Source: Candidatus Kapaibacterium sp.
GTDB lineage: Bacteria > Bacteroidota > Ignavibacteria > Kapaibacteriales > UBA2268
Direction of reading: 5' to 3'
Length of the DNA: 64,000 nt
Assembly: GCA_938031175.1 (NCBI GenBank)
Contig: CALHGZ010000007.1
Location: 66,999-130,998 of the forward strand
Shown here: piece by piece, positions 12,689 to 25,427 of the stretch
How the letters are laid out: each line of letters starts with the position of its first letter
Numbering within the stretch: position 1 is the stretch's first letter
Position numbers and translations under genes: made by a program
Notes under the pieces: model-generated
Seen by the model: only the letters and a program-made list of their open reading frames with translations
Databases searched by the model: none
What the model was told of the DNA's origin: nothing

Positions 12689-13780
12689 ATGAATATAGAT
12701 GAAAACTTAATCAGAGAAAAATTAGAGAATTTGGTAGACCCTGATTTAAATAAAACATTCAAAGAATTAGGCTATATACACGAGATTCAGGTAAGAAACG
12801 GACTAATAAAAATCTATTTAAAAATAGTACAACCCATCCATTGGATAGCCGAAGAAATTAATAGATTATGTGCTAATGCCTTAAACGAAATCGCATCTGA
12901 TTTGGAAAATGAAATAATAATTAGTGAATTAGAACAGCAAGACCCTGGCAGAACTGTACTAAAGGGAGTGAAAAATATAATAGCAGTAGCTTCTGGGAAA
13001 GGTGGTGTGGGTAAATCATCGATAGCTTCGAATATTGCATCTGCATTATCATTAAATGGAGCAAAAGTTGGAATTTTGGACGGTGATGTATATGGTCCGA
13101 GTCAACCTACTATGTTCGGATTGACTGATTCAAGACTCGAAGTTCTTGAGAAAGAGGATGGAACAGTTGTGGCACTTCCAACTGAAAAATGGGGTATAAA
13201 AGTTGCATCTATGGGCTTCATTATGAATAGAGACCAGGCAGCGATAATACGTGGACCTATGCTTGCAAGCTATTTTTCTATGCTTTTCGAGCAATTGGAT
13301 TGGGGATTGCTCGATTTCCTAGTTTTTGATTTGCCGCCCGGTACGGGTGATATACAGCTTACCCTGACACAAAAAATACCATTAACAGGTGCTGTGATTG
13401 TAACAACTCCACAGGAAATAGCTCTTGCTGACGTTCGAAGAAGTATTGCTATGTTCAAAAGAGTTAATGTCAATATACTTGGAATAATCGAAAATATGAG
13501 TTATTTTTCACCTCCCGATATGCCTGATAAAAAATATTATATATTTGGTCGTGGTGGTGGCAAGCTGGTTGCCGAAGAAACTGGGGTTCCTTTGCTTGGC
13601 GAAGTTCCGTTGGATATTGTTATGAGAGAAGGAAATGATGGTGGTTTGCCAATTGTTCTCAGGGATGATGTTTCAAAACAAAAGCAGATTTTAATTCACA
13701 TAACAAAGAATATTGTTAGGGAAATAAGGAAAATTAACCAAAAGATGTTATCCGATTATACATTACAAATTCAAATCTAA
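12689..13780 (+). CDS. mrp: Mrp/ApbC-type iron-sulfur cluster carrier ATPase
   Basis: Mrp carries Fe-S clusters to apoproteins in the cytoplasm. An N-terminal MIP18/DUF59 domain (about 1-80) precedes the ParA-like ATPase with deviant Walker A SGKGGVGKS at 102-110 and the DLPPGTGD block near 220. The CxxC that binds the bridging cluster in ApbC/NBP35 is absent: the usual place after ENMSYF reads SPPDMPDKK. Many FCB-group Mrp proteins seem to share this, so transfer may not depend on it. The ATG is preceded by AAGGAAGGG. The NFU gene follows 3 bp after the stop, supporting a common operon and Fe-S role. Confidence 0.92.
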   Translation: MNIDENLIREKLENLVDPDLNKTFKELGYIHEIQVRNGLIKIYLKIVQPIHWIAEEINRLCANALNEIASDLENEIIISELEQQDPGRTVLKGVKNIIAVASGKGGVGKSSIASNIASALSLNGAKVGILDGDVYGPSQPTMFGLTDSRLEVLEKEDGTVVALPTEKWGIKVASMGFIMNRDQAAIIRGPMLASYFSMLFEQLDWGLLDFLVFDLPPGTGDIQLTLTQKIPLTGAVIVTTPQEIALADVRRSIAMFKRVNVNILGIIENMSYFSPPDMPDKKYYIFGRGGGKLVAEETGVPLLGEVPLDIVMREGNDGGLPIVLRDDVSKQKQILIHITKNIVREIRKINQKMLSDYTLQIQI

Positions 13781-13783
13781 TCA

Positions 13784-14017
13784 ATGAATATTAAAGAAAA
13801 AGTTGAAGAAATACTTGCCGATTTAAGGCCCTATCTTCAAATAGATAATGGTGATATTGAATTTGTTAGATATGATATAGAAAATAAAGTACTCGAGGTT
13901 AGATTTCTCGGGATGTGTGGGAATTGCCCGCTTTCACAAATGACATTAAGAGCGGGTATAGAACAATTCATCATAAAAAATATTCCCGAAGTAAAAAGAA
14001 TTGAAGCTGTTCAATAA
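13784..14017 (+). CDS. NifU C-terminal-domain (NFU) iron-sulfur scaffold
   Basis: This 77-residue protein is a stand-alone NFU domain. The cluster-binding CGNC motif (Cys45 and Cys48) and the DNGDIEFV and EVRFLGMCG blocks are intact. NFU proteins bridge a 4Fe-4S cluster between two monomers and pass it to targets. It starts 3 bp after mrp, so the two form a compact Fe-S delivery pair that would serve enzymes in this window such as aconitase and SdhB. Confidence 0.93.
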   Translation: MNIKEKVEEILADLRPYLQIDNGDIEFVRYDIENKVLEVRFLGMCGNCPLSQMTLRAGIEQFIIKNIPEVKRIEAVQ

Positions 14018-14287
14018 CTAAATGAATTTTTATTTTATTGAATTCAGGATTGTTAGTCATCATTGAATTATTAACCGAACTCGATGCATAAAATAGATAT
14101 CTATGTGTTTTATTCAGGGATTACAGCGATATAAGGAAACTAACACATATAAATCAGCTTTATCTTTTTTTATCAAATTTTAGATTGCTTTAATCTTGGT
14201 TAATCATCATTTAAAAAATCATTTGGTATTGAAGTATAAATTTTTAAATTTTAGTAAATTCAATATATAAAAATTGAAATGGGAGCA

Positions 14288-19921: not shown

Positions 19922-22135
19922 TTAGAATTTTATAAATGGTATCACTTTGGCATTTATTTGTAACAAATAGGTACCTGGCGGTAGTTGCCTTAAATCAAGT
20001 TTAGTACTTTTTTCACTGGTCATACATTGTAAGTCGTAATTCATAAGGCATTGACCCAAAAAATTATAGATCCGCACAATAATAGCATTTTCGAAAACAA
20101 TGTTAGATTGGAATAAGACTTCAATGTAATCAGTAGCTGGATTCGGGCTTATTTTAAATTCAATAAAGTGAGAAATAAAATCTTCAACCGAGCCGATTTT
20201 GTCTGTTTTAAATTTGATAATTTCTGACCAATCACTGCTTAAATTCTTATAAGTTGCTTTTATTCTGCAATAATACCATCTCAGTTCATCGAGAGAATTT
20301 TGAAGTTTATATATAGTGTCATTTAAACCATCTGCATTGATTATAATTTGATTGAAATACGAGTCTTCAGCAATTTGTAAGTGGTAAGAAAATCTTGGAT
20401 TTTGGGAATTCCATATAAAATGACCGTCTGTTGGAAAAGATTCCATATCATTTATGGGATAAATCAATCGAGGTGCCGTTAATTCAGGCATTTGAGTTTG
20501 GAATGACCAAACATCGGACCAGGAACCTTGTCCCGATATATTTCTTGCTGAAACTTTCCAATAGTAAGTTTTATCAAAATCGAATATTGCTAAACTTTTG
20601 TATGTAGTGTCTTGCAAATTATCAATATCAATAATGGGTTTAATGAATTCGGAATTATCATCGATTTGTAAATGGTAAAATTGTGCAAATGGGGATTTTG
20701 ACCATTTAAATGTAATTGAATAAGGCATTGAATCGGCATTGTTTTCAGGATAAATTAATTTAACAGATTCTGGAATAGGAATTTCAGTCTTGAAGGTAGC
20801 ATAGTTGGACCAGTTTGTCTCTCCGCCAATGTTACGAGCCATTACCCTCCAATAATAAGTCATATTTTTCTGTAAAATCTCGCTGGGAATGTAGAAAGTA
20901 TCTTTAATAAAATTTGTATTGATGATCCTGAAATTAAATTGTTTATCTGTAGCAACTTGTATTCGATAATCTTCGGCACGTTTTGATTTACTCCATCTAA
21001 AGACCGGTTTGATTGGTATTTGTTCAGAGTTATCTTCAGGAAATATTAGTTCGGGTATTTCAGGTTTTTCGATGATAGTTGTAAACATTTGCATAAGTGG
21101 CCATGGGCTCGCATTTGAACCGTCTTTTATTGCTCGTACTCTCCAGTAATACTTGGTATTGTATTGTAGGTTTACCCTAAGACTTGTGTCTTTTGTAGTT
21201 TTGTCAACTTCGAGATAATTGAAATCTGTTCCTCTAGAGACCTGCACATAATATTCCTTAGCAGCAGGAACTTTATGCCAACGTAAAACAACATCATTAG
21301 GAACGTTTTTTTCATCATTTATAGGATAAATCATAACAGGCGATAACAATGGCATATTCTCTTGCTCATAGATACGAGCAGCATCGCATATTTCTTGTAC
21401 AAAAACTGGTGCAATAAGTGTAGTTGCTGCTGAATTGGGTCTGCTGTCATTTTGATTGAGTGCAAGATCAGGGAGCAATTTATAGTCATTACCAACAACT
21501 TTATGAAAATAGTCGAATACATATACATTTTTAGGAAAAATGCCCAGAATTGGATCCAAACCACGAGCTAAAGTATCTTTTGCCCATTTGCTGAAAAGAT
21601 GTGAGAGTTGGGCTTCAACATCATTTGTTTGTGAAGCAACAAGTGGGGCGTTTGTCCAAATAACGAAAAAATTATTTGGATTATCACGCATTATTCTGAT
21701 AATCGAACGCCAATGCCATTTATAATTGTAAACTGATTTTTTTAGGGGATTAAGAGTATCGTTTGGATTGCCCCATTCAACCATTTGCGAAGAATTGAAT
21801 GAGGTTTTGATAATTATTATTTTATAATTGTTGATATATTGATATACATCGGCTAATACATCTAATCCACGAAATATCAAGTTCCATCGGTACCATTCAT
21901 TGTTATTTGGATTTTGTGGAAATGTAAACCGGCTAAATGTATATGCAAATTCACCACTAAATCCATTTATCTGATTATAACGAGTTAATTCAATAGGAAT
22001 GCTTGTTTGACTGCCATTGGGTCCCCAGATATTGGTACCAACGTCAAGACATAGAAATGCACCCGAACGATATAGTTCCTGAGTATGAGCAGTCAAAAGC
22101 ATCAGAAACAATAATATTATTGTCACCTTTTTCAT
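19922..22135 (-). CDS. T9SS-secreted protein with four FN3-like repeats
   Basis: Signal peptide at about 1-17. Residues about 20-260 form an alpha/beta domain that weakly recalls SGNH hydrolases (FFVIWTNAPLV near 155, DSRPN near 230 where the family has the Asp-x-x-His block), but the catalytic histidine is not obvious. Four fibronectin type III-like repeats follow (about 265-650), each opening with a P.LIYP.ND or IYPEN motif and containing KYYWRVRA-type strands. The last 75 residues are a T9SS type A sorting domain (FKISPNPATDY ... YNFLGQCL ... PPGTYLLQI). It is expected at the cell surface, perhaps acting on glycans; the enzymatic claim is a guess. Confidence 0.78.
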   Translation of the reverse strand: MKKVTIILLFLMLLTAHTQELYRSGAFLCLDVGTNIWGPNGSQTSIPIELTRYNQINGFSGEFAYTFSRFTFPQNPNNNEWYRWNLIFRGLDVLADVYQYINNYKIIIIKTSFNSSQMVEWGNPNDTLNPLKKSVYNYKWHWRSIIRIMRDNPNNFFVIWTNAPLVASQTNDVEAQLSHLFSKWAKDTLARGLDPILGIFPKNVYVFDYFHKVVGNDYKLLPDLALNQNDSRPNSAATTLIAPVFVQEICDAARIYEQENMPLLSPVMIYPINDEKNVPNDVVLRWHKVPAAKEYYVQVSRGTDFNYLEVDKTTKDTSLRVNLQYNTKYYWRVRAIKDGSNASPWPLMQMFTTIIEKPEIPELIFPEDNSEQIPIKPVFRWSKSKRAEDYRIQVATDKQFNFRIINTNFIKDTFYIPSEILQKNMTYYWRVMARNIGGETNWSNYATFKTEIPIPESVKLIYPENNADSMPYSITFKWSKSPFAQFYHLQIDDNSEFIKPIIDIDNLQDTTYKSLAIFDFDKTYYWKVSARNISGQGSWSDVWSFQTQMPELTAPRLIYPINDMESFPTDGHFIWNSQNPRFSYHLQIAEDSYFNQIIINADGLNDTIYKLQNSLDELRWYYCRIKATYKNLSSDWSEIIKFKTDKIGSVEDFISHFIEFKISPNPATDYIEVLFQSNIVFENAIIVRIYNFLGQCLMNYDLQCMTSEKSTKLDLRQLPPGTYLLQINAKVIPFIKF

Positions 22136-22253: not shown

Positions 22254-23621
22254 ATGAAAATCATAACAATCAACCCCGCAACAGAAGAATCTCTCGAGGA
22301 ATTCAATGAGCATAACGATAGTGAAATCAATGAAATATTGGAATCAGTAAAAATAAGATTTAATAAATGGAAGAAAACATCATTCAAAGAGCGTTCAGAT
22401 TTATTGATAAATCTTGCTAAAATTATTCGAGAAAGAAAGTCAGATTTAGCTCACTTAATGGCATTAGAGATGGGCAAACCTTTGACACAGGGAATTTCTG
22501 AAGCTGAGAAATGCGCTTGGGTATGTGAATATTATGCTGAAAATGCAGAGAAATTTTTAGCTGATGAAACAATTCAAACAGAGTTAAAGTTGAGCCAGAT
22601 TTCATACCTTCCACTTGGAGTAGTTTTAGGAATAATGCCTTGGAATTTTCCGTTTTGGCAGGTATTTCGTTTTGCAATACCTTCTATTTCAGCTGGGAAT
22701 ACCTGCTTACTGAAACATTCGCGCAATACAAGCGGTTGTGCTGTTGAAATTGAAAATTTGTTCATCGAGGCTGGCTTCCCTAAAGATGTGTTTAGGACAT
22801 TACTTATTGGTTCTACGAGAGTAGAAAAAATTATAAAGGACGATCGTGTTTCTGCAGTGACATTAACAGGAAGTACACCTGTTGGGAAAGATGTTGCTTC
22901 GAAAGCTGGAAGCGTTATAAAAAAAACAGTGATGGAGTTAGGTGGTAGTGATCCTTATATAATTCTCGAAGATGCAGATTTGAAAAATGCAGCTGAAATA
23001 TGCGCTTTCGCAAGATTGATAAATAGCGGGCAAAGTTGTATTGCAGCCAAAAGATTTATTGTAATTAGAGAAATAAAAGAGGAATTTGAAAGATTATTTA
23101 TTGAAGCAATGAGAACTTACATTATGGGAGACCCATTGGATAAAAGGACACAAATTGGGCCTCAAGCGCGTAGAGATTTACGATTGGATTTGCATCGCCA
23201 AATTACACAATCTCTTGAAAAAGGGGCAAAATTACTTTTGGGTGGAAAGATACCGGAAGGTAAAGGTTATTTCTATCCTCCAACAGTTTTGACAGATGTT
23301 AAGCCTGGTATGCCAGCATTTGATGAGGAAACATTTGGACCTTGTGCTGCAGTGGTTCCAGCAGAAACACTTGACAATGCTATTGAGCTTGCTAATAATA
23401 CAGAATTTGGTCTCGGTGCAGCTGTTTTTACCAATGATATTGAAAAAGGTCTCTATATTGCAAGGGATATGCTCGATGCAGGAAATTGCTTTATCAATAC
23501 ATTCGTACGTTCTGACCCACGATTGCCATTTGGAGGGATTAAAGAGTCGGGATATGGCAGGGAACTGTCCTTTTTCGGGATCCGTGAATTTGTGAATATT
23601 AAGACGGTGTGCATAGGATAA
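22254..23621 (+). CDS. NAD(P)-dependent aldehyde dehydrogenase, succinate-semialdehyde type
   Basis: This 455-residue ALDH has the catalytic residues of the superfamily: Asn131 in the WNFPFW motif, Glu228 in ELGG and the nucleophile Cys262 in GQSC. The opening INPATEE and the short length match the subgroup annotated as succinate-semialdehyde dehydrogenase (GabD/Sad-like), which oxidises succinate semialdehyde to succinate. The substrate is inferred from the subgroup only. The gene is divergent from the FN3 T9SS gene and ends 2 bp from the convergent barrel-cytochrome gene, so no room for a terminator remains between them. Confidence 0.88.
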   Translation: MKIITINPATEESLEEFNEHNDSEINEILESVKIRFNKWKKTSFKERSDLLINLAKIIRERKSDLAHLMALEMGKPLTQGISEAEKCAWVCEYYAENAEKFLADETIQTELKLSQISYLPLGVVLGIMPWNFPFWQVFRFAIPSISAGNTCLLKHSRNTSGCAVEIENLFIEAGFPKDVFRTLLIGSTRVEKIIKDDRVSAVTLTGSTPVGKDVASKAGSVIKKTVMELGGSDPYIILEDADLKNAAEICAFARLINSGQSCIAAKRFIVIREIKEEFERLFIEAMRTYIMGDPLDKRTQIGPQARRDLRLDLHRQITQSLEKGAKLLLGGKIPEGKGYFYPPTVLTDVKPGMPAFDEETFGPCAAVVPAETLDNAIELANNTEFGLGAAVFTNDIEKGLYIARDMLDAGNCFINTFVRSDPRLPFGGIKESGYGRELSFFGIREFVNIKTVCIG

Positions 23622-23623
23622 AA

Positions 23624-24982
23624 TCAATAAAATAAATGAATTTGGGCTGACCATCGGGTGGACTCATATTCATTAGTTCCCAAGAAGCGATATTCGGGCT
23701 GAATTTCGATATATGGTAAAAGCATAATCTTGGCATAAAATACAAGTTGATTGGCTTTGAATGAAAAATAGATATCGGGTTCAGGGGTATATTTGGTCAA
23801 TGCTGTTTCTGCTCTTAATCCCAAATATACGCCCTTGAATGTGTTGTATTCAATAGCTCCAAGTAGATTATTTGTTCTTCTGATATTCTGGCTCTGTGAA
23901 AATGCCCATTGGGAAGAAATATATATATCCTCCAATAATCTAAAATAAATAAAAGCATTATAAAATTGAAAATTTGAATTTATGTAAGAAGATATGCCTA
24001 AATATGACGCAGGAAATATGTCATTCATTAATTCAGGATAAATAATTATTCTAAATAGATAAGACGGCATACTTCTATCAGGTATAACAGATTTTTGTTC
24101 TCCAAGCATAGTTACTTCGTATAAACTCATAGTAGCGAAGATTCCGGCATTAAATGTTAGCCAATCTAATGATTCGTAAATAATTTCTATACCAGGTTCA
24201 GCATAATAAGGTGCAATAAAGCTTTCGGTACCCTGAACAGATGCTATTCTTCTATCGAAGGAAGTCATATCACATTGACGAATACCAAAGGAAGGCTGAA
24301 ACAATCCAATTTTCAGCATTGGCTGATCTTTCGCCGATTTTAAAATTATATAGGCATTTCCGTATTGTTGTCCTCTGAAAATTTTGGGTCCGAAATTCAA
24401 ATCTGTCTCAATTGTCAACCAGTCGAATGGATTATAAGCTAGATAAAGTGATGCTTGCATAGGGAAATAGCGTCTCTGCGCAGATGCTGTTTTATGCGAA
24501 CGAACGGATTGAAAGCGGAAATCGAATCCGAAATTGAATGTATTCCAAAAGGATTGGTATGTTGTGTCCTCTCTTTTAATAAATTCTTTTTTTTCAATTA
24601 GTTTATAGATGTCTTCAAGGAAAGTATTTTCAGTAGTCAAGGTAGAGTTATCTTTATTAAATTGCGAGCCAAATAAAGTTCTGAGTCCTCCTCCTTGATA
24701 ATTTGAATGACACTTGTAACATTTATTTCCCGATAGTAGAGATTGAACAGGTGTAGAATACAATTTAAGGTTGGTTATTGAAAATGAAATGAATAAGATA
24801 ATCAGCAATCGTCTGTAGAGAATATTGATTTTGATTATAGCAAGATTGTAATTTTTATTGTTGGAATAATTATTAACAGGGAATATCCAAAAAAAGGCTG
24901 TTTTGAGAAAACAATTTCTAAAATCAATTATGCAATTTAATAGGACTTTTAGTATAATTATATGCAACATTTGTTTAATCAT
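23624..24982 (-). CDS. Outer-membrane beta-barrel with N-terminal c-type heme motif
   Basis: A single heme c site CYKCH (Cys88, Cys91, His92) is followed by the GGGLR..FG segment seen in some barrel-cytochromes, then about 300 residues of alternating amphipathic strands rich in aromatic residues, ending in IHLFY with a terminal aromatic as in outer-membrane barrels. A signal-like hydrophobic stretch (RRLLIILFISFSITNLKLYS, 57-76) lies before the heme. About 55 residues precede this, with no Met between, so the true start may be non-ATG (for example TTG at L59) or the extension may be real. The upstream monoheme cytochrome gene ends 4 bp before the ATG. A role in electron transfer at the outer membrane is inferred; Cyc2-like fused cytochrome-porins have a similar plan. 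Confidence 0.72.
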   Translation of the reverse strand: MIKQMLHIIILKVLLNCIIDFRNCFLKTAFFWIFPVNNYSNNKNYNLAIIKINILYRRLLIILFISFSITNLKLYSTPVQSLLSGNKCYKCHSNYQGGGLRTLFGSQFNKDNSTLTTENTFLEDIYKLIEKKEFIKREDTTYQSFWNTFNFGFDFRFQSVRSHKTASAQRRYFPMQASLYLAYNPFDWLTIETDLNFGPKIFRGQQYGNAYIILKSAKDQPMLKIGLFQPSFGIRQCDMTSFDRRIASVQGTESFIAPYYAEPGIEIIYESLDWLTFNAGIFATMSLYEVTMLGEQKSVIPDRSMPSYLFRIIIYPELMNDIFPASYLGISSYINSNFQFYNAFIYFRLLEDIYISSQWAFSQSQNIRRTNNLLGAIEYNTFKGVYLGLRAETALTKYTPEPDIYFSFKANQLVFYAKIMLLPYIEIQPEYRFLGTNEYESTRWSAQIHLFY

Positions 24983-24986
24983 TTTA

Positions 24987-25427
24987 TTATTTGTGAACAG
25001 GTAATTTACCTGCTTTTCTGGCTGCTTGCACGTCCGCAGGAGTTACAATTTTTTGTATATCATTGAATTCCCATAAGACATAAGTTAGGATAAGGCCAAT
25101 GTCATAGTCGGATAAAGTTTTGTCCACTTCAGTTTCCATAACACCGTTGTATGTAATACCATTTACAACAATAGTCCCACTTCTGCCAAAAAGCATTCCT
25201 CTGAGAAGTTCCTCGACCGAATTGTTAGCAATATAATCTGCATTTTTTAATGGAGGGTAAACTCGCCTGATACCTGTTCCGTTTTTGCGATGACATTTCG
25301 AACATTGATCAATATAGAGCTTTTCTGCACGGGCTACATCATATGGCCTGTTTGTTTTTGACGACAAGTCTGTTATGCATATTATGATGATTAAACTTAT
25401 AATTATCAGATATAATATTTTTATCAT
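24987..25427 (-). CDS. Periplasmic monoheme cytochrome c
   Basis: The 146-residue protein has an N-terminal hydrophobic signal or anchor (about 1-20) and one class I cytochrome c domain. The heme site CSKCH is Cys42, Cys45, His46, the PPL block follows at about 58-60, and Met97 in GVMET is the probable distal ligand. It is cotranscribed with the barrel-cytochrome gene (4-bp gap), so it probably exchanges electrons with it in the periplasm. The physiological donor or acceptor cannot be told from sequence. Confidence 0.9.
   Translation of the reverse strand: MIKILYLIIISLIIIICITDLSSKTNRPYDVARAEKLYIDQCSKCHRKNGTGIRRVYPPLKNADYIANNSVEELLRGMLFGRSGTIVVNGITYNGVMETEVDKTLSDYDIGLILTYVLWEFNDIQKIVTPADVQAARKAGKLPVHK

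Follow-up and report, generated by a model that had tools for sequence, protein, structure and literature searches.

We describe here a family of proteins in which a single heme-attachment motif precedes a predicted beta-barrel, and whose genes are accompanied by partner genes that change from one redox protein to another within the family; these features were established by computation, starting from the window, a stretch of 64,000 nucleotides of a Candidatus Kapaibacterium genome. The family has the same design as Cyc2 but is distinct from it, is common in Kapabacteria and Ignavibacteria, and probably carries electrons. We infer that the barrel protein attaches heme, resides in the outer membrane and transfers electrons, and we hold with moderate confidence that this single polypeptide serves as an electron conduit through the outer membrane, with exchangeable periplasmic partners. 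Cyc2 is a fused cytochrome-porin iron oxidase (Acidithiobacillus, Mariprofundus) that is used as a marker for iron oxidation; to our knowledge, no other fused monoheme cytochrome-porin has a demonstrated function. If a second family exists, outer-membrane electron exchange may have been overlooked in the largely uncultured Kapabacteria and Ignavibacteria, and Cyc2 searches would have to distinguish between the two families. The two partner types found on one tree would offer a natural experiment in matching a conduit with one heme to its periplasmic carrier.

Two minus-strand open reading frames are called from ATG, at 23624-24982 (452 amino acids) and 24987-25427 (146 amino acids); a previous reading made from the sequence only had given the coordinates and strand of both correctly. 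It had also placed the cytochrome gene 4 bp upstream of the barrel gene, a distance that holds between the frames as called from ATG but not necessarily between the genes: with a start at TTG 24808, about 178 nt separate them. In 24 of 30 relatives retrieved with the whole protein (set A1, best-scoring loci), an ATG lies 29-37 residues ahead of the first Cys. At this position the window has TTG 24808, 29 residues before the first Cys, and its only ATGs further up are 24982 and another four codons after it. The 58-codon extension that separates the two possible starts scores 0.01 in codon usage versus 0.095 for the rest of the frame, with a GC content of 24% versus 34%; core windows of the same length range from -0.08 to 0.25, which includes the score of the extension. 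The extension (24809..24982) is probably a 5' leader rather than protein, and TTG 24808 is probably the start codon. The 55 odd residues noticed earlier before the signal-like segment fall within this extension. The codon score does not settle the choice between ATG and TTG. From TTG 24808, the putative signal peptide has no positive charges at its very start and no clear positive n-region, the in-frame stretch just upstream reads KINILYRR, and a rare start codon near that stretch is possible. Residues of the barrel protein are numbered from TTG 24808, and the features of the locus are the following:

23624..24808, minus strand: fused monoheme cytochrome-porin as probably translated from TTG 24808, 394 aa
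24809..24982, minus strand: in-frame 58-codon extension to ATG (relatives' ATG positions, codon scoring)
24707..24721, minus strand: CxxCH heme-attachment motif (CYKCH, residues 30-34), in 88/88 members
24533..24760, minus strand: heme segment, helical in the model, which separates the signal peptide from the barrel (residues 17-92)
23627..24538, minus strand: predicted 16-strand beta-barrel, residues 91-394 (AlphaFold2, Foldseek, VIA-align)
24200..24298, minus strand: loop between strands 5 and 6, residues 171-203, which holds QPSFGIRQCDMT (model)
24266..24268, minus strand: Met181, His in 79/88 and Met in 9/88 members, which may be the distal heme ligand or part of a metal site
24458..24460, minus strand: Met117, invariant in 88/88, second candidate distal ligand
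23636..23638, minus strand: His391 in the last strand, 85/88, third candidate distal ligand
24987..25427, minus strand: class I monoheme cytochrome c, 146 aa (PF00034, 28.0 bits versus a cut-off of 21.3)
25290..25304, minus strand: CxxCH (CSKCH) of the partner cytochrome (sequence)

Exactly one CxxCH is present in each of 88 non-redundant family members, some of which were retrieved with patterns containing the heme motif, and in all 30 A1 relatives, a count that excludes L039, a fragment starting after the heme region. Since the motif is present once in 88/88 members, its occurrence in the window protein is not due to chance. The 88 proteins share, without exception, the two Cys and one His of CxxCH as well as Met117 and Asp180, and Gly39, Arg43 and Gly47, after the heme, are invariant in 75/75; the CxxCH..GGGLR..FG pattern described earlier is indeed there, with CxxCH at 24707-24721 followed by QGGGLRTLFG. 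The window protein has no match above cut-off in Pfam or NCBIfam (best Haem_bd, 11.7 bits, cut-off 27). Among 75 members, Pfam at E 0.1 or better gives the general OMP_b-brl in 12 and BBP2 in 2 (best 6.8e-5), and NCBIfam gives unrelated names only, in 3 members; a sequence search of the PDB returned one weak match (E 0.024), which covers the signal peptide and the heme motif. Neither Pfam nor NCBIfam was found to have a model for the barrel family, and the open-licence literature yielded no paper on the combination of YceI, Rieske protein, beta-barrel and cytochrome, and nothing on a fused cytochrome-porin in Kapabacteria or on Kapaibacter with Cyc2. Papers that pair YceI with a Rieske protein bear unrelated titles, and none of the papers listed for extracellular electron transfer and Cyc2 features Kapabacteria; as far as these libraries and this literature show, the family is apparently unnamed. 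Cyc2-type or FeGenie iron-oxidation genes are reported in Ignavibacteriaceae/Ignavibacteriales (PMC6344600; PMC8478452), and may or may not include members of the barrel family.

The genome that contains the window (2.69 Mb, 18 contigs, 97% complete) holds three copies of the family according to a whole-genome search, whereas a scan of genome contigs with the single protein detected no relative. Among 60 relatives' genomes searched at E 1e-3, 44 have matches, the window's own among them. Within the order, 86 of the 123 genomes match (E 1e-60, with an alignment of the window's clade as query), and a draw of 296 genomes from the phylum contains 55 with matches (E 1e-6, A3 query), 54 of these 55 belonging to the same class. 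Named records contributed 79 loci, which go back to the 80 best among 99 confirmed loci; the heme motif or a C-terminal motif had served as search pattern, and near-duplicates remain (for example, L060/L062, L075/L091 and L083/L084). Most come from metagenome-assembled genomes that carry the label Kapabacteria, Ignavibacteria or Bacteroidetes. Other labels are found on a few: Myxococcales, Deltaproteobacteria, Proteobacteria, Latescibacteria, Aquificales or Bradyrhizobiaceae, and these labels may be wrong. Alignment A3 comprises 74 of 78 usable rows (L062, L091, L112 and L115 were omitted; L048 had an X), and A5 comprises 64 of the 75 A3 rows. In one record labelled Latescibacteria, more partial matches to the family lie beside the main copy (L059:11808-12578 and 13613-14116).

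An AlphaFold2 model built with 74 relatives (A3) has a pLDDT of 89.3 and a pTM of 0.86. Helices are modelled at residues 20-26, 30-33, 45-54, 62-71, 73-77 and 82-88, ahead of 16 longer strands that span residues 91 to 393 (three elements of 3-4 residues are not counted), so that the beta-barrel announced after CxxCH by the sequence-only reading is predicted with high confidence. Foldseek matches 243 solved chains (E 0.001 or better), and the 50 that were listed are porins or channels of the outer membrane; another porin, 8wv0, ranks first and OprP third. VIA-align places OprP (2o4v) and OprO (4rjw) at the top, with Z 24.2 each and rmsd of 2.6 and 3.0 over 273 and 283 residues, respectively; the next other porin scores 22.7, and 5O78 is at rank 16 (Z 21.1). 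A viral structure library gives 9 matches at E 0.001, the best being named 'Phosphate-selective porin O and P'. The likeness to OprP is best taken as a likeness to porins rather than as specific proof, because Foldseek puts 8wv0 first and because 5O78 is the fold given for Acidithiobacillus Cyc2 in another paper (PMC10654088). Sequence identity to OprP/OprO is 11%, and the porin O/P family is absent from the six Pfam families matched by any of the 75 members (E 0.1). Modelled alone, the heme segment reaches a modest pLDDT of 73.9 and a pTM of 0.47 and has no match among solved chains, which does not prove a new fold.

OprP and OprO are phosphate-selective porins that are not known to contain heme, and the predicted fold is that of solute porins. 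It is thus conceivable, but unlikely, that the barrel is an ordinary solute channel whose heme is structural, sensory or catalytic (acting, for example, on oxygen, NO or peroxide). The distal ligands discussed below are candidates, which leaves room for such a role; the strict conservation of the heme motif (88/88) and the redox-gene neighbours (64 + 6 of 79 loci) speak against it. In the conduit reading that we prefer, the N-terminal helical segment would keep one covalently bound heme c at, or inside, the periplasmic mouth of a 16-strand OprP-like pore. It counts against this reading that one heme cannot span the membrane, so that a substrate has to come into the pore. Fe(II) or some other small, soluble redox donor or acceptor would reach the heme through the pore, and the heme would exchange electrons with a periplasmic carrier.

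The resemblance to Cyc2 that had been proposed from the sequence stood for design, and failed for membership. On the one hand, both proteins have a signal peptide, one CxxCH, a 16-strand porin-like barrel, a similar length, AxPxF...[TS]xxxCxxCH in register, and often a cytochrome c gene alongside. Keffer et al. 2021 give OprO and OprP as the porins closest to Cyc2, with 16 strands, and as defining motifs AXPXFAR[Q/K][T/Y], which they call unique to Cyc2, and PXL about 4 residues after CXXCH (PMC8406198). A single CXXCH is found in 88/88 members of the barrel family, and the window protein has a predicted 16-strand OprO/OprP-like barrel and, with 394 aa from TTG 24808, the length of at least 365 aa that is typical of Cyc2. 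On the other hand, AXPXFAR[Q/K][T/Y], PXFAR[Q/K][T/Y] and PXL each occur in 0/75 members, and only a relaxed AxPx[FYLIM]...[TSY]xxxC fits 53/75; the family is without AR[Q/K] and has GGGxR and LG/FG after the heme, and its usual partner is a Rieske protein.

As a Cyc2 reference, a typed motif retrieved 11 plasmid records, of which six were taken and five aligned (A4); the sixth locus, L124, has an annotated start that falls after the heme motif. Compared as whole profiles, the family and Cyc2 align over 32 columns including the signal peptide (hhalign probability 92), while the barrel parts remain unaligned (probability 0.4%, with only five Cyc2 rows). Between the mature N-termini of the family and of the five plasmid Cyc2-type proteins, 18 columns are in register (AxPxFxxxTGxxCxxCH) with an hhalign score of 39.5, to be compared with a maximum of 37.0 in 200 column-shuffled controls and with 25.6 for the family against the partner cytochrome; these columns may reflect either convergence or a common origin of the heme segment. 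Each of the five aligned Cyc2-type genes is followed, at a distance of no more than about 0.5 kb, by a c-type cytochrome gene, and at L124 a cytochrome gene lies upstream, with another gene in between.

The window's genome also contains a separate Cyc2 (L134:6416-7612, a 398-aa open reading frame) with SIPAFARQY, CxxCH and PRL; it has S for A at the first place of the motif and a multiheme cytochrome c gene upstream (L134:5092-7612, G000:C4). A search of 60 genomes gave near full-length relatives of it (54-59% identity) in five others, while nine more have matches that are weaker or partial. That the barrel is a divergent Cyc2, an iron oxidase of the described family, is very improbable: shared design and length, the 18-column score above its shuffled maximum and the cytochrome gene near all five aligned Cyc2-type loci argue for it, but not one of 75 members has the motifs, no sequence similarity between the barrels was seen with the five Cyc2 rows, and the same genome encodes a Cyc2 with PAFARQY and PRL. 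By sequence the barrel protein is not Cyc2, and this identification was rejected; it likely works like Cyc2. The barrel had further been thought shorter than that of Cyc2, even minimal, which is incorrect: its 394 aa from TTG compare with the 398-aa frame of the Cyc2 in the same genome, with the same strand count.

A Rieske gene lies on the same strand within 2.5 kb of the barrel in 64 of 79 loci, and a window-type cytochrome gene in 6; none has both and 9 have neither. Among these nine, five have YceI and a small membrane protein, and L074, L087 and L115 meet a contig end at most 1.7 kb away. These counts derive from an HMM scan that covers L063 and L119, lost in gene calling, and the very neighbourhoods that were scanned had supplied the sequences for the HMMs of Rieske, YceI and cytochrome. 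As many as 65 of the 68 Rieske matches in the 79 loci lie within 2.5 kb and on the strand of the barrel. RRxF[LF], like a twin-arginine signal, is found in the first 110 residues of 47/55 Rieske proteins, and the cluster motif CxH..CxxH in 51/55; Pfam confirms Rieske and YceI at L041 and Rieske at L042. Of five Rieske-family matches in the window's genome, two adjoin the two barrel paralogues. In most of the family, the Rieske protein would be the periplasmic carrier in place of the cytochrome.

YceI, which is not an electron-transfer protein, adjoins the barrel in 42/79 loci, and this counts against a conduit. The small membrane protein, without Pfam match in the two copies scanned, is encoded in 56/79 loci; among the 64 Rieske loci, it is found in 51, YceI in 37 and both in 33. 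YceI proteins are known for isoprenoid binding, and these frequencies lend some weight to a role in lipid or quinone handling at the outer membrane, where YceI would deliver a quinone, the Rieske protein oxidize it and the barrel heme accept the electron. We regard this as improbable, since the 6 window-branch loci among the 79 keep the barrel without YceI or Rieske within 2.5 kb. A one-strand module of barrel, small membrane protein, YceI and Rieske is seen at L041:8281-10955 (G000:C2) and at 33 of the loci L043-L121. Small lipoprotein-like cytochromes are encoded upstream of a number of barrels in L043-L121 (the PSCyt1 match is weak, under the cut-off), and some such proteins have CX4CH for CxxCH, for example CAYYGCH in L042:4550-4951. 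At L135:6736-10138 (G000:C5), two MauG-type di-heme peroxidase-like genes, one confirmed by Pfam, are followed by two Rieske genes, one of which carries a T9SS-type sorting tail.

The monoheme cytochrome encoded upstream of the window's barrel had been recognized from the sequence, and it holds up: PF00034 matches above cut-off, and the gene is conserved beside 10/10 barrels of its clade. These ten barrels, each with the cytochrome directly upstream, are those of the window, L013, L015, L016, L043-L047 and L053, after leaving out repeats of three members (L012, L014, L017) and of the window (L009). CxxCH and the methionine of a GVM motif are kept in all ten neighbouring cytochromes, and this Met may be the distal ligand of the partner cytochrome. 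The ten cytochrome-partnered barrels form one clade (SH-aLRT 100) within a Rieske-partnered tree, which was obtained by a quick method with a midpoint root and for which the program flags unusual composition in several rows, that of the window included. That the clade is single rests on branch support and not on a label test, since with 12/82 rows labelled, 43/500 shuffles were as low. In a search of the whole order, ten matches reach E 1.4e-167 or better before a gap to 4.9e-105; the clade is therefore small and falls in the window's own family of genomes.

The ligand of the barrel heme opposite the motif could come from outside the heme segment, which after CxxCH has no conserved His/Met column (best 23/88). 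In the model, residue 181 belongs to the loop that joins strands 5 and 6, the third outer loop. In 16-strand porins this loop folds into the pore, and by porin topology residues 171-203 are predicted to be the constriction loop L3, which would place them in the pore. The exclusive use of His or Met at residue 181 is compatible with a heme ligand, and D180-[H/M]181-T182 could bind a metal or shape the pore; Met117 is a candidate distal ligand on a par with residue 181. All nine Met181 proteins belong to the window's branch and have a cytochrome partner, while L016 has a cytochrome partner yet His at 181 and is the first to diverge within the clade in the tree as drawn (support 82 for the other nine). 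As the nine share one ancestor, the change from His to Met amounts to one or few events and gives no statistical proof. We therefore put forward only tentatively that the family is a second class of fused cytochrome-porins in which the constriction loop of the barrel provides the distal ligand, with a change from His to Met after the Rieske protein was replaced by a class I cytochrome c. If so, it would be an outer-membrane conduit redox-tuned by partner exchange.

In the window's branch, the carrier would be the adjacent class I monoheme cytochrome c, and electrons would pass onward to cytochrome oxidase. One COX1 was found in the window's genome. We infer that flow is inward rather than outward, by a slight preference, because of this COX1, the Cyc2 encoded alongside it in the genome, and the partner being a class I cytochrome. 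For the paralogue at L042 outward flow is favoured because of its multiheme cluster: a multiheme MtrC/F-like protein is encoded before the barrel, and a Rieske protein, a monoheme cytochrome, a 496-aa multiheme protein and a cytochrome b561/NapC-like protein, apparently quinol-oxidizing, after it. This cluster (L042:6173-13299, G000:C2) looks like an electron route from quinol to the outer membrane. It resembles the Geobacter ExtHIJKLMNOPQS cluster, in which the porin ExtI is encoded with the Rieske protein ExtO, the cytochrome b ExtP and multiheme cytochromes; ExtI is called a porin without heme, unlike the barrel, and the two are likened by description and not by sequence (PMC5877670). Given this precedent, it is possible, if a minority reading, that the window's conduit sends electrons out of the cell, where Fe(III), humics, a poised electrode or the like would accept them, which would be compatible with the conduit itself; the evidence comes from the paralogue, however, and not from the copy with the class I partner, and the presence of Cyc2 and COX1 weighs against it.

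Crossing of the outer membrane by a porin and a cytochrome is likewise known from MtrAB, PioAB/MtoAB and OmbB-OmaB-OmcB. These systems use a separate multiheme protein, whereas the barrel has one fused heme and its adjacent partner is monoheme, so that it does not fit the MtrAB/PioAB type; MtrB has 26 strands, versus the 16 predicted here.

Around the locus, an aldehyde dehydrogenase gene (22254-23621, plus strand; PF00171) is convergent with the barrel gene, and the same-strand gene ahead of the cytochrome resembles PEP carboxykinase by eye; neither neighbour is a redox carrier. A promoter scan gave 11 sites versus 11.0 in shuffles, that is, no excess, and the 3 terminator-like sites are all on the opposite strand. 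The second gene past the barrel (19922-22135, minus strand) encodes Fn3/Ig-like repeats and a T9SS sorting tail.
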